From: Oscillatoriophycideae cyanobacterium NC_groundwater_1537_Pr4_S-0.65um_50_18
GTDB lineage: Bacteria > Cyanobacteriota > Cyanobacteriia > Elainellales > Elainellaceae
DNA: 64,000 nt
Direction: 5' to 3'
NCBI GenBank assembly: GCA_016208305.1
Contig: JACQYI010000007.1
Span: 62,001 to 126,000, forward strand
The notes under the pieces were generated by a model. The model was not told where the DNA came from. It saw only the letters and a program-made list of their open reading frames with translations, and did no database searches. This document shows, one piece after another, positions 58,622-64,000 of the stretch. Position 1 is the stretch's first letter, and each line of letters opens with the position of its first letter. The position numbers were made by a program, and so were the translations under genes.

Positions 58622-58984
58622 TCATGTAGGCAGCATTCCGGGAAAACCCAAAAGCTCATCGCCAATTTCAGCAGAAATGCGTTCAAACAGTGCTATGTCC
58701 GTATCAGACACAATTGCCGTGCTGATCGGAGTTGCTGTGTATCTGCTATTCAAACCGATCGCTGTTTCAGCGACATCCGGTGCGAAAGCATTAACATAGA
58801 CCAGAGCTTTCACCTGCGGATTACCAGCCGCCGCACCTATGATCACGTTTCCAGCATAGGCATGCCTGACCACAACAATGGAACCTGCCTGATTGTCAAT
58901 CACCCGCTTAGCCGTTGCCACATCCTCAGCAAGTGAGGTAAGCGGAATTTGGGCAGCAGTGACTGTATAACCATCCTGCTCCAA
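58622..58984 (-). pseudogene. chimeric frame: inactive alpha/beta-hydrolase fragment joined to a cupin tail
   Basis: Residues about 1-90 match the middle of the neighbouring hydrolase at 59012 (SIVVVRHAYAGNVIIGAAAG versus PIVLVGHSYGGSVITNAVNG), but the nucleophile Ser is Ala and the N- and C-terminal parts of the fold are missing. Residues 95-120 (TDIALFERISAEIGDELLG...) match the tail of the cupin gene at 49073. The DNA is similar over the same stretch, so a recombination joined two genes. The product is unlikely to be an active hydrolase. Confidence 0.75.
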
Positions 58985-59011: not shown

Positions 59012-59833
59012 CTATGGCGCAGTTGCAGCATGCTCGATGATCTCTGCTACGGCATCCGAATGGGAAATCATCACGACATGAGACGCACCATTCACAGCGA
59101 TCGTCTCCTTTGAGTTAGCGCGCTCCGCCATGAAAGCGTGCATCGCTGCTGGAATGTTCAAATCACGCTCGCCATAAATAAACCAGGACGGGGTGGACTT
59201 CCATGCAGGCATGCCGGATGCCTCGTTCAGCGCAGCGTCCGTCACGGGTCGCTGGGTGCTCGCCATCAGCTCTGCATCTGCGACTGGCACATCCGCAGCA
59301 AACTGAGCGTGGAACTTGGACTGCTGGATGTAGAGATCCTTACTGCCATCGGGCAGGGCGACTGGCGGCGCGAGCGTCGGTCCGAGTGTGCTGCCTGGGT
59401 AACGACCTGAGAGGTCGGCAGCCGATTCACCTGTATCAGGAGCAAAGCCTGCAACATAGACCAGTGCCTTCACGTTTGGGTTGCCATTGACGGCATTCGT
59501 GATTACCGAGCCACCATAGGAGTGCCCGACCAGAACGATGGGCCCTTCAATGCTCTTAAGGATACTGGCAATATAGTCCGCGTCGCTCTTGACTCCGCGC
59601 AGGGGATTGGCAGCGGCAATCGTTGGGTATCCTTTTGCAATCAGCTTGGTTAATACGCCGTTCCAACTGTCAGACTCAGCGAACGCGCCGTGGACGAAGA
59701 CGACAGTAGGCTTGCTGTCTTGGGCGATAACAGGGTTCATGATGGTTCCTAAAGAAGTGATTAAGACGACTGCCAGGGAAAACAAGGCGATCAAAAGCAG
59801 ACGGGTAATGTTTCTAATGGTGAGCATGTTCAT
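59012..59833 (-). CDS. secreted alpha/beta hydrolase
   Basis: A 273-residue exported hydrolase. A signal peptide (ITRLLLIALFSLAVVLITSL, cleavage after VIAQ) is followed by VVFVHGAFAESDSW, the nucleophile Ser in PIVLVGHSYGGSVITNAV, Asp in YGERDLNIPAA and His in VNGASHVVMISHSDAV. Related to the esterase/lipase group often called RsbQ- or pimeloyl-esterase-like, with unknown substrate. The decayed chimera lies immediately downstream (27 bp). Confidence 0.9.
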   Translation of the reverse strand: MNMLTIRNITRLLLIALFSLAVVLITSLGTIMNPVIAQDSKPTVVFVHGAFAESDSWNGVLTKLIAKGYPTIAAANPLRGVKSDADYIASILKSIEGPIVLVGHSYGGSVITNAVNGNPNVKALVYVAGFAPDTGESAADLSGRYPGSTLGPTLAPPVALPDGSKDLYIQQSKFHAQFAADVPVADAELMASTQRPVTDAALNEASGMPAWKSTPSWFIYGERDLNIPAAMHAFMAERANSKETIAVNGASHVVMISHSDAVAEIIEHAATAP

Positions 59834-61109: not shown

Positions 61110-62660
61110 TTATCGAGTACGGCTGGCTTTGATACAATCTGCCGCCTTTTCACCAATCATAATTGTGGGGGCGTTAGTATTGCCTGTCGTGATGGTTGGC
61201 ATGATGGAAGCATCCACGACACGTAATCCTTCAACCCCATGTACCCGAAGCTCAGAGTCTACCACCGCCATTGAATCTGTACCCATTTTGCAGGTGCCGA
61301 CCGGATGATATACTGTACTGCAAATGTTCCGGATATAGGCTTCGATCGCTTCATCACTCTGAACCTCAGCACCCGGAGCAAGTTCTCGACCACGAAACTC
61401 ATCAAAACCGTTGCTATGAAGCAATCGTCGCATTAATTTAATCGCAGCCACCAGCTTTTGCACATCGACTTCACTTTGCAGATAGTTCATCCGAAACATT
61501 GGTGAATCTTTTGGATTACGCGATCGCAAACCAACGCTGCCAACATTTTGGAGATGGGTTAATGAGACAGCACCCGTAAAGCCAAACTCTACCGGAGTAT
61601 AACCAGGTGGCAAGAACTGAATGGGACCAAAAAAGAACTGTAAATCGGGCGCAGTATCCAGATTGTCCTGACTATGCAAAAATAAGCCTGCTTCAACTCC
61701 ATTACTAGTAATAGCAGGGTATACAGCCTGCGTTGCCTCATACACTATAGAGACAAGAATGTGGTCTTGCAGATTTTGACCGACACCTGGCAAATCAGCC
61801 ACTACCGGAATTCCCATGTCTCGCAGATAGGATGCATTGCCAATGCCAGACAGTAGCAACAGTTTTGGTGAATCAAACGCACCTGCACTCAAAACTACTT
61901 CCTGGCTAGCTTGCACCTGATGGAGCTTGCCTTCATACAAATATTCCACTCCGACGGTACGCGCACCCTCAAATAGCAACCGAGTCACTAACGCGCCTGT
62001 TGTCACAGTCAAATTGGGACGCTGAAGAATGGGTAGAAGGAAGGCAGCAGCAGCACTGTGTCGTTTGCCATTCTTAACGGTCAATTGATAGGAACCTACT
62101 CCTTTCTGTTGTGTCCCGTTGAAATCAGGATTGTAGTCATATCCCATTGCTACACAGGCATCTACAAATCGTTGGGATACCTCAGAGGGAGAAATAATAT
62201 CGGTAACGCTCAACTCCCCATCTACCCCGTGATATTTAGAGGCTCCTCGCTGCTGGTGCTCAGATTTTTTGAAATAGGGTAGAACATCTTGGTAACTCCA
62301 ACCGGGATTTCCCAATGAATACCAGTGGTCATAATCGCGAGGATTGCCTCGGACATACATCATGAAATTAATTGAACTGCTGCCCCCTAAGACTTTGCCA
62401 CGGGGACAAAACATTTTGCGACCCGCCAAAGGTGGCGCTCCGCGATCGTTGAGGTAAGGTTCTGGTTCAGAAAAGTATGCCCAATCTACATCAGAGCCAA
62501 GGAGGCTCATAAATTCTGAGGGGATATAAATCTCCGGTTTCGTATCCGAGTTGCCTGCTTCGAGGAGTAACACAGTTGCACCCCTGTCTTCAGTCAAACG
62601 ATTGGCAACGACGCAGCCCGCCGAACCTGCACCAACTACAATGTAGTCATAGTCAGCCAT
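61110..62660 (-). CDS. GMC-family oxidoreductase (choline-dehydrogenase-like)
   Basis: A 516-residue FAD enzyme from the ATG at 62660, where [20 protein letters not shown] is the canonical FAD-binding start; a longer frame begins at 62744. Also present: [20 protein letters not shown], the catalytic His in [14 protein letters not shown], and the second-signature end [20 protein letters not shown] with the paired Asn. It oxidises an alcohol using FAD. Ribosome site GGGAAAAG is moderate. Substrate unknown. Confidence 0.92.
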
Positions 62661-62765
62661 AATATTCTTTTCCCTGTGAGTCTGCTCAATTGGAGTTACT
62701 ATCCAAACTGATACGTCCATAGCCCAAGAACTGACCCAATCCATTCTCCCTGGCTGGATAGATAA

Positions 62766-63096: not shown

Positions 63097-63345
63097 TCAT
63101 TTAATAAAGCCTTCCGTGGGTCCTAGACCTGGATTTTCATGGTTGAAGCCACCATCTTCTCCACCCGTAATCTGTGAAAGCTGATCGTCACTCAGCACAT
63201 CACCAGAAGTATCTCCACTCTTACGGGAAATATCCTTCGTAGGATCTAAGCTTGGATTTTCATGGTTAAAGCCCCCGTCTTCTCCACCCGTAACCTGTGA
63301 AAGTTCGTCTGAATTCAATTCTTCATCATTGCGTTTCGTAGACAT
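63097..63345 (-). CDS. tandem double-glycine peptide precursor
   Basis: An 82-residue protein from the ATG at 63345, preceded by AGGAGAAATT. Two near-identical modules, 41 residues apart, each carry a double-glycine leader (DELSQVTGG and DQLSQITGG) followed by EDGGFNHENPxLxPT. GG leaders mark substrates of C39-peptidase ABC exporters in bacteriocin and related peptide systems. The precursor would release two very similar peptides. The DNA of both modules is highly similar, so the duplication is recent. No exporter or modifying enzyme is within the window. Confidence 0.75.
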   Translation of the reverse strand: MSTKRNDEELNSDELSQVTGGEDGGFNHENPSLDPTKDISRKSGDTSGDVLSDDQLSQITGGEDGGFNHENPGLGPTEGFIK

Positions 63346-63594
63346 AATTTCTCCTGAAAAAGTTTTGACCGTTGAGCTTAAAGAAATAGACTGAGCTGAC
63401 GCACGTTCCAAGGACATCTGCATGGACAAGATGCAATCGCCATTGTCACGGAGAACGATTGCCAACTATCCCTATTAGATCTTTAAGGTTTTCGCGAGAA
63501 TTTGTTGGATTATCCATCACACAATTCATAATTAACTCAAAGGTAGACGACTAGGACTAATAGAGTTCTGTTATCTGCAATTGAATACTCTCAC

Positions 63595-64000
63595 TCATTC
63601 ATTTACATTGAGTAAATGAGCAAGATGCCTCAAATCCTGCATTAGCCGTTGATATAATTCAATGAGTTCCTGATAGGAAAAATTTGTTTCAACGTTATGA
63701 ACAGTGGAGTTTAGGTAGAATGAGAGACTTGTCATAGATTGATCTAATGACCAATATTTAGCAGTTGCATAATCAGTATTTTCAAGACATAAGCCAAACG
63801 CTGTAAAAAAGGTTTTCAATGTTCGCTTATCTACTCTGACTTCGCAACTGAGAATGCGACTGATAGTGCGCTCGTTGAGAAGCGATCGTTCACTTAATTT
63901 TTCATAAGTGTGACGATTGCCGTATTCATCATAAAGAACATCAGCTTGAGCCAGCTTCTGCAATCCCTGACTGGACAGCACTACGCCTCGAGTACGATTG
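63595..64000 (-). CDS. HTH-type N-terminal domain protein, truncated at the window edge
   Basis: The frame is open to the right edge (NRTRGVVLSSQGLQKL at its upstream end), so the true start is outside. The protein reads YGNRHTYEKLSERSLLNERTI, then SRILSCEVRVDKRTLKTFF and AFGLCLENTDY. This resembles the HTH-like N-terminal domain of cyanobacterial effector-associated proteins. A helical C-terminal stretch ends LYQRLMQDLRHLAHLLNVNE. It is a short stand-alone form upstream of the double-glycine peptide gene and could be its regulator. Confidence 0.65.
   Translation of the reverse strand, partial: NRTRGVVLSSQGLQKLAQADVLYDEYGNRHTYEKLSERSLLNERTISRILSCEVRVDKRTLKTFFTAFGLCLENTDYATAKYWSLDQSMTSLSFYLNSTVHNVETNFSYQELIELYQRLMQDLRHLAHLLNVNE

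Follow-up and report, generated by a model that had tools for sequence, protein, structure and literature searches.

A cyanobacterial double-glycine precursor gene with two leader–core modules and its relatives of variable module number

Introduction

Double-glycine (GG) precursors are usually described as consisting of one leader and one product. Several similar peptides per precursor, with protease sites between them, occur in cyanobactins, microviridins, and fungal KEX2-processed repeat proteins. There, the sites serve other proteases, whereas the repeated units that we describe here carry complete C39-type leaders.

The closest described systems are the NHLP/NHLM systems (TIGR03796, TIGR03797, and TIGR03794; Haft 2010, PMC2887384), and the same exporter adjoins members of the gene family described below. 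Tandem precursor pairs of TIGR03795 are fused in Delftia and Acidovorax (PMC2887384), which provides a precedent for two precursors per polypeptide. Unlike NHLP/NHLM substrates, the present family has no nitrile-hydratase-like or Nif11 leader; its leaders are short (about 20 residues), are repeated up to four times, and have near-identical cores behind them. The GG precursors of Wang 2011 (PMC3140520) and the EbfG1–4 proteins (PMC4997328) have the GG leader, the C39 exporter, and the cyanobacterial host in common with this family. Most NHLP and N11P precursors carry a negative charge (PMC3140520). A cyanobacterial C39 peptidase domain is required for efficient secretion of EbfG1–4, and the EbfG proteins play a part in biofilm formation (PMC4997328). 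The EbfG proteins are encoded by separate genes, unlike the repeated-leader precursor studied here, and term searches of the two papers gave no account of a precursor that carries its GG leader more than once.

Here, "the window" is the whole 64,000-nucleotide stretch of DNA that was analyzed. We call its genome G000, its contig C5, the genome of another species of the same genus G002, and the protein of interest P0001.

A precursor with two modules

P0001 reads, in order, MSTKRNDEELNSDELSQVTGG, EDGGFNHENP, SLDPTKDISRKSGDTSGDV, LSDDQLSQITGG, EDGGFNHENP, and GLGPTEGFIK (Table 1). The open reading frame and the two units reported in the earlier note are present, on the minus strand: LSQVTGG-EDGGFNHENP and LSQITGG-EDGGFNHENP lie 41 residues apart, and the reported 123-bp period corresponds to a 91-nt DNA repeat of 76% identity at a 123-nt spacing. 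The repeat is not a chance resemblance, because 19 of 22 residues are identical between the two units and 0 of 2000 shuffles gave more than 9. A longer reading, of 122 aa from a TTG, appears in the ORF listing. We prefer the ATG at 63345 because AGGAGA precedes it and because the starts of relatives coincide with it; specifically, the G002 relative begins at an identical MSTKRND, and relatives start with MST.

Table 1. Features of the precursor gene and its immediate neighbors, in window coordinates
Feature	Position	Strand	Basis or remark
Tandem leader–core precursor gene (P0001, 82 aa)	63097..63345	minus	ATG at 63345, stop 63099-63097; relatives
Ribosome-binding site AGGAGA, 4 nt ahead of the ATG	63350..63355	minus	read from sequence
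Leader 1 LNSDELSQVTGG (L-12, L-7, V-4, GG)	63283..63318	minus	NCBIfam TIGR01847 match
Core 1 EDGGFNHENP	63253..63282	minus	0 nonsynonymous and 6 synonymous differences vs G002
Variable spacer SLDPTKDISRKSGDTSGDV	63196..63252	minus	first 17 codons: nonsynonymous rate 0.32, gene maximum
Internal leader 2 LSDDQLSQITGG (L-12, L-7, I-4, GG)	63160..63195	minus	motif positions; predicted short helix 53-56
Core 2 EDGGFNHENP	63130..63159	minus	0 nonsynonymous and 3 synonymous differences vs G002
C-terminal tail GLGPTEGFIK	63100..63129	minus	layout as in relatives' tails (GxGPTEGxx)
GMC oxidoreductase ORF, downstream	61110..62744	minus	position after GG gene kept in G002, 79% identity; candidate role only
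HTH-like gene, upstream, runs past window end	63595..64000	minus	HTH_26 14.9 bits, below cut-off 22

In ComA, the C39 recognition positions are -15, -12, -7, and -4 (PMC10885120). Both P0001 leaders carry the double-glycine signature (hydrophobic residues at -12, -7, and -4; GG or GA at -2/-1), and TIGR01847 matches P0001 in two stretches (29.3 bits; cut-off 15.7). The sequence at the C39-recognition positions thus bears out the idea that the internal motif is a second leader. No long leader of the NHLP/Nif11 kind was detected on P0001: TIGR03798 scores 12.8 bits against a cut-off of 32.3, and TIGR03793 is not among the matches listed.

A model of P0001, built with 13 relatives, is mostly unstructured and of low confidence. 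Its sole helices, at residues 12–16 and 53–56, fall in the two leaders and fit weakly with two docking helices. Because the model is otherwise disordered, the GG residues appear to lie outside any folded domain, and the buried GG that would have spoken against a leader is not seen, a weak argument given so poor a model. Among solved structures, the sole similarity was a weak one, between the leader and NHLP leaders (E about 0.6).

A family with two to four modules

With a module profile, we searched the 36 genomes of the taxonomic family to which the window belongs, together with a sample of other genomes of the class. Matches were present in 11 of the 36, and no convincing relatives were found among the other sampled class genomes; matches in G211 and G023 were judged to be due to chance. 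The resulting EDGG-type family comprises 14 genes, all from one cyanobacterial family and spread over 11 genomes. A scan of 84,980 genomes matched Drouetiella hepatica, Phormidium tenue FACHB-886, and Leptolyngbyaceae/Oculatellaceae assemblies, and a phage or plasmid origin of the window gene was rejected because phages, plasmids, and viral contigs gave no match. The sole non-cyanobacterial match of that scan, a gene of Lachnospiraceae JC7, has a single leader and was set aside. Its locus (L069:7127-7629, plus) holds two adjoining GG-leader precursors with near-identical leaders, one of them followed by EDGGFW, and an apparent radical SAM gene lies close by. The resemblance to the window core seems convergent.

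As had been anticipated, homologs with GG leaders vary in module number: the 14 genes have 2, 3, or 4 modules each, spaced 21–41 aa apart. Among the 28 internal leaders, L at -12 is present in 28, L at -7 in 25, V, I, or A at -4 in 28, G at -2 in 27, and G at -1 in 28; the three exceptions at -7 (T or A) belong to G035 and G025. Within a gene, cores are 61% identical over residues 5–12 after GG; between genes, the figure is 19%. Copying or homogenization of modules inside each gene would be expected to give such a pattern. Candidate peptides predicted from the relatives Drouetiella hepatica Uher 2000/2452 and Phormidium tenue FACHB-886 include EDGGFLHQTEGSLNQEDLSKISGG and EDGGFRRQLDGELSEDELSTVSGG. 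The four-module precursor of G013:C72 (L017:8924-9304, minus) contains two core types (GGDDNGYPG twice and GGEDGGYRR twice; DDNGYPGI / EDGGYRR.NP). Its two kinds of core indicate that a module is able to diverge, and it is a possible mixed-product precursor.

The duplication in the window gene had been taken to be recent. Our data do not support this, because the G002 ortholog (67% identical) already has two modules and because synonymous differences between modules are about 0.5 per site (0.48 in G000, 0.53 in G002). Between the orthologs, the overall synonymous difference is 0.58, and the two cores together show 0 nonsynonymous and 9 synonymous differences; the spacer is freer to change. Elsewhere in the family, duplication is recent. 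Specifically, in Drouetiella hepatica (G003; same genus as the window genome) two of the gene's modules are identical across 72 nt, and two modules of G013:C443 agree at 82 of 87 nt.

Exporters and neighboring genes

Ten of the 14 family genes adjoin an NHLP/NHLM exporter gene. In eight, the C39-ABC gene is 93–363 bp away (G029, G035, G025, G013:C443, G000:C47, G002:C871, G003, and G032). The G008 and G020 genes adjoin the partner ABC gene; the G008 contig ends there, and the stretch examined at the G020 locus showed no C39-ABC gene. The other four copies stand alone (G000:C5, the window copy; G002:C2; G013:C72; G010:C81), with an exporter elsewhere in each genome. The missing neighbor at G002:C2 and G013:C72 is weak evidence because those contigs are short.

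The window genome encodes a single NHLM-type exporter. It lies on contig C47, and each of its four named parts scores above cut-off (TIGR03796, 1122.5 vs 853.3 bits; TIGR03797, 963.8 vs 709.4; TIGR03794 and TIGR03896 also above). Its C39 domain (about the first 165 residues encoded by L023:9921-12170; Pfam Peptidase_C39, E 1.8e-34) has apparent catalytic Cys, His, and Asp residues, and the two ABC genes flank a three-module paralog (L023) that has the opposite orientation. The earlier note had proposed looking for a C39 ABC transporter close to the window copy; none was detected on contig C5, and such adjacency is common, not obligatory. The assignment of the window gene to the C47 exporter is indirect.

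Two NHLM loci have further features. At one, a Nif11-like precursor (L020:1742-1972, plus; TIGR03798 24.1 bits, cut-off 32.3) shares the locus with a four-module GG gene, which suggests two substrate kinds at one exporter. In two genomes, genes resembling sulfatase-modifying factors and histidine-specific methyltransferases (EgtB/EgtD-like, ergothioneine) are located near the NHLM locus (L023:2896-5213, plus; L020:11416-13704, plus).

Around the window copy, the HTH-like gene noted earlier is indeed upstream on the same strand, but it is not conserved and has no match in the syntenic G002 contig. What the G002 locus keeps is a DsbA-like gene (76%), a LuxR-type regulator (69%), and the GMC oxidoreductase (79%). 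The first two adjoin one another upstream of the GG gene, and in the DsbA-like protein (L014:13574-14128, minus, past the window's right end) the usual CxxC site reads SPQS. A short ORF at 58622-58984 (minus) resembles the middle of the neighboring alpha/beta hydrolase (59012-59833, minus) and is possibly a degraded tandem duplicate of it.

Tandem precursors with a different core

Across 91 surveyed stretches, most of them NHLM loci, we found a second group, the RRENLDK-type precursors, which repeat the leader–core alternation of the EDGG group near NHLM exporters in other cyanobacteria, about 1.9–2.3 kb from the C39-ABC gene. The G019 precursor consists of LSDTELEGVSGG-LTQRFEDARLENLDKG and a second similar unit. 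Similar genes exist in G009, G004, G010, G028, G034, G033, and G014, and in G329 and G217 the precursors run leader-core-core, twice. Other NHLM-linked precursors have one leader and two RRENLDK cores (L138:16556-16747, plus; L141:16520, plus; L156:3134, minus; L159:215, minus; L164:16838, plus), an arrangement intermediate between single and tandem architecture. The leaders also resemble that of the CTB family bacteriocins (NF038167): the RRENLDK-type relative in L102 is just above cut-off (32.6 vs 32), whereas P0001 falls below it (16.0 vs 32).

In G112, G217, G329, G205, G384, G019, and G028, the second-group core (FDELRRENLDKDAV, RFDEARRENLDKG) is repeated in tandem, with no GG, after a sequence that resembles a Sec signal peptide (MKRFALALTALTIS...AA). 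These Sec-type proteins have at least three tandem copies of FDELRRENLDKDAV or RFDEARRENLDKG, about 11 in L217, and in several cases the GG-leader form is present in the same genome. The repeat proteins were located at L215:3892-4422 (minus), L216:3253-3843 (plus), L217:4655-5332 (minus), and L218:4162-4752 (plus), and further at L213:2807-3364 (plus), L210:4398-4775 (minus), and L211:3787-4032 (minus). No Pfam family covers them, and no known family describes them well; the sole NCBIfam match above cut-off is TIGR02953 in L217 (47.2 vs 41), on the signal region and first repeats. A structural model is all-helical with very low confidence (pLDDT 46).

In the second group, the occurrence of one core behind both apparent Sec signals and GG leaders shows that it is the exported unit, and by analogy the EDGG core may be one too. 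No Sec-type version of the EDGG core was found in the 36 genomes of the family. We do not claim homology of the two cores, as the profile match is to the leader and extends over just a few residues of the core.

Proposed cutting and export of the precursor

P0001 is very probably an exported GG precursor. Each module pairs a C39-type leader (L-12, L-7, V/I-4, GG) with a short acidic core made up of EDGGFNHENP and a tail, and most likely the cell's single NHLP/NHLM-type exporter on C47, beside the three-module paralog, would recognize, cut, and export the protein. That exporter consists of a C39 peptidase-ABC protein and its partner ABC, HlyD-like, and cyclic-nucleotide-binding subunits. We lean toward a cut at every GG, yielding short acidic peptides. 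The internal leader would allow the second cut by the same peptidase. The proposal of two similar short peptides needs qualification here: two cuts would release a 41-mer (EDGGFNHENP...TGG) that keeps leader 2 at its C terminus and a 20-mer (EDGGFNHENPGLGPTEGFIK), or trimmed derivatives of these.

A product that ends in leader 2 and GG would be an odd mature peptide, which speaks against cutting at every GG, as do the three internal leaders with T or A at -7. A rather unlikely alternative is that the exporter removes the N-terminal leader only and secretes a concatemer, here of ~61 aa, with two display units, the internal leader having been carried along by duplication. This reading is favored by the one-leader, two-core precursors near the same exporters, which imply that cores need not always be separated, and by the tandem RRENLDK cores that follow an apparent Sec signal with no GG present. 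However, a relic leader would be expected to decay as the spacer has, whereas all or nearly all internal leaders retain the C39 contact positions although the cores differ among genes.

The products of cutting at each GG are predicted to be acidic and hydrophilic (charge -3 to -6; gravy about -1), and the cores have no Cys. These properties bear on a class II-like bacteriocin precursor, whose cut peptides would kill related strains. The bacteriocin-type leader (TIGR01847) and an exporter named for bacteriocins fit that reading, but we consider it improbable given this composition. No immunity gene was recognized, and Pfam Bacteriocin_IIc reaches 25.5 bits against a cut-off of 27.1, in the leader region only.

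Equally doubtful is a RiPP precursor whose cores are modified before export by a distant or unrecognized enzyme. The leader does resemble RiPP leaders (weak matches to TIGR04149 and TIGR04497), and a peptide could be a substrate of the GMC oxidoreductase conserved downstream. Yet a look for RiPP enzymes, as the earlier note had suggested, recognized no LanM, YcaO, radical SAM, or ATP-grasp gene in the 20-kb stretches around the C5 and C47 copies, although the contig ends 7.6 kb to the right of the window copy. The aromatic cores had suggested a radical-SAM cyclophane RiPP, a candidate that we rejected because no such enzyme was recognized near either copy. Finally, the absence of a nearby exporter and neighbors unlike those at C47 might suggest that the window gene duplicates the C47 paralog, is no longer used, and is decaying; this is highly improbable given the strong constraint on both cores and the gene order kept in G002.

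Short, acidic, hydrophilic cores and the lack of any recognized modifying enzyme nearby lead us to favor an unmodified product. Our guess, from composition and the EbfG precedent, is an extracellular signal or surface factor rather than a pore-forming bacteriocin.

Perspective

The exporter and the leader type are already known. Repeated full GG leaders with variable copy number have no description that we could find in the open-access literature, which is weak evidence because subscription papers lie mostly outside that scope. We tentatively speculate, at somewhat less than even confidence, that the family is a prohormone-like system of alternating C39 leaders and cores, in which every GG is cut during export, module number changes, and cores are homogenized within genes; the second group's core also lies behind Sec signals, so there would be two export routes.

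With 2–4 full leaders and conserved peptidase contacts, polyprotein processing by a peptidase-exporter becomes directly testable. Such processing would change the way in which GG precursors are sought and their products predicted. The RRENLDK group, in which one core follows either of two kinds of export signal, suggests that cyanobacteria secrete a class of peptides as yet undescribed. One precursor could yield several secreted peptides that resemble one another, in a manner loosely reminiscent of prohormones in animals.
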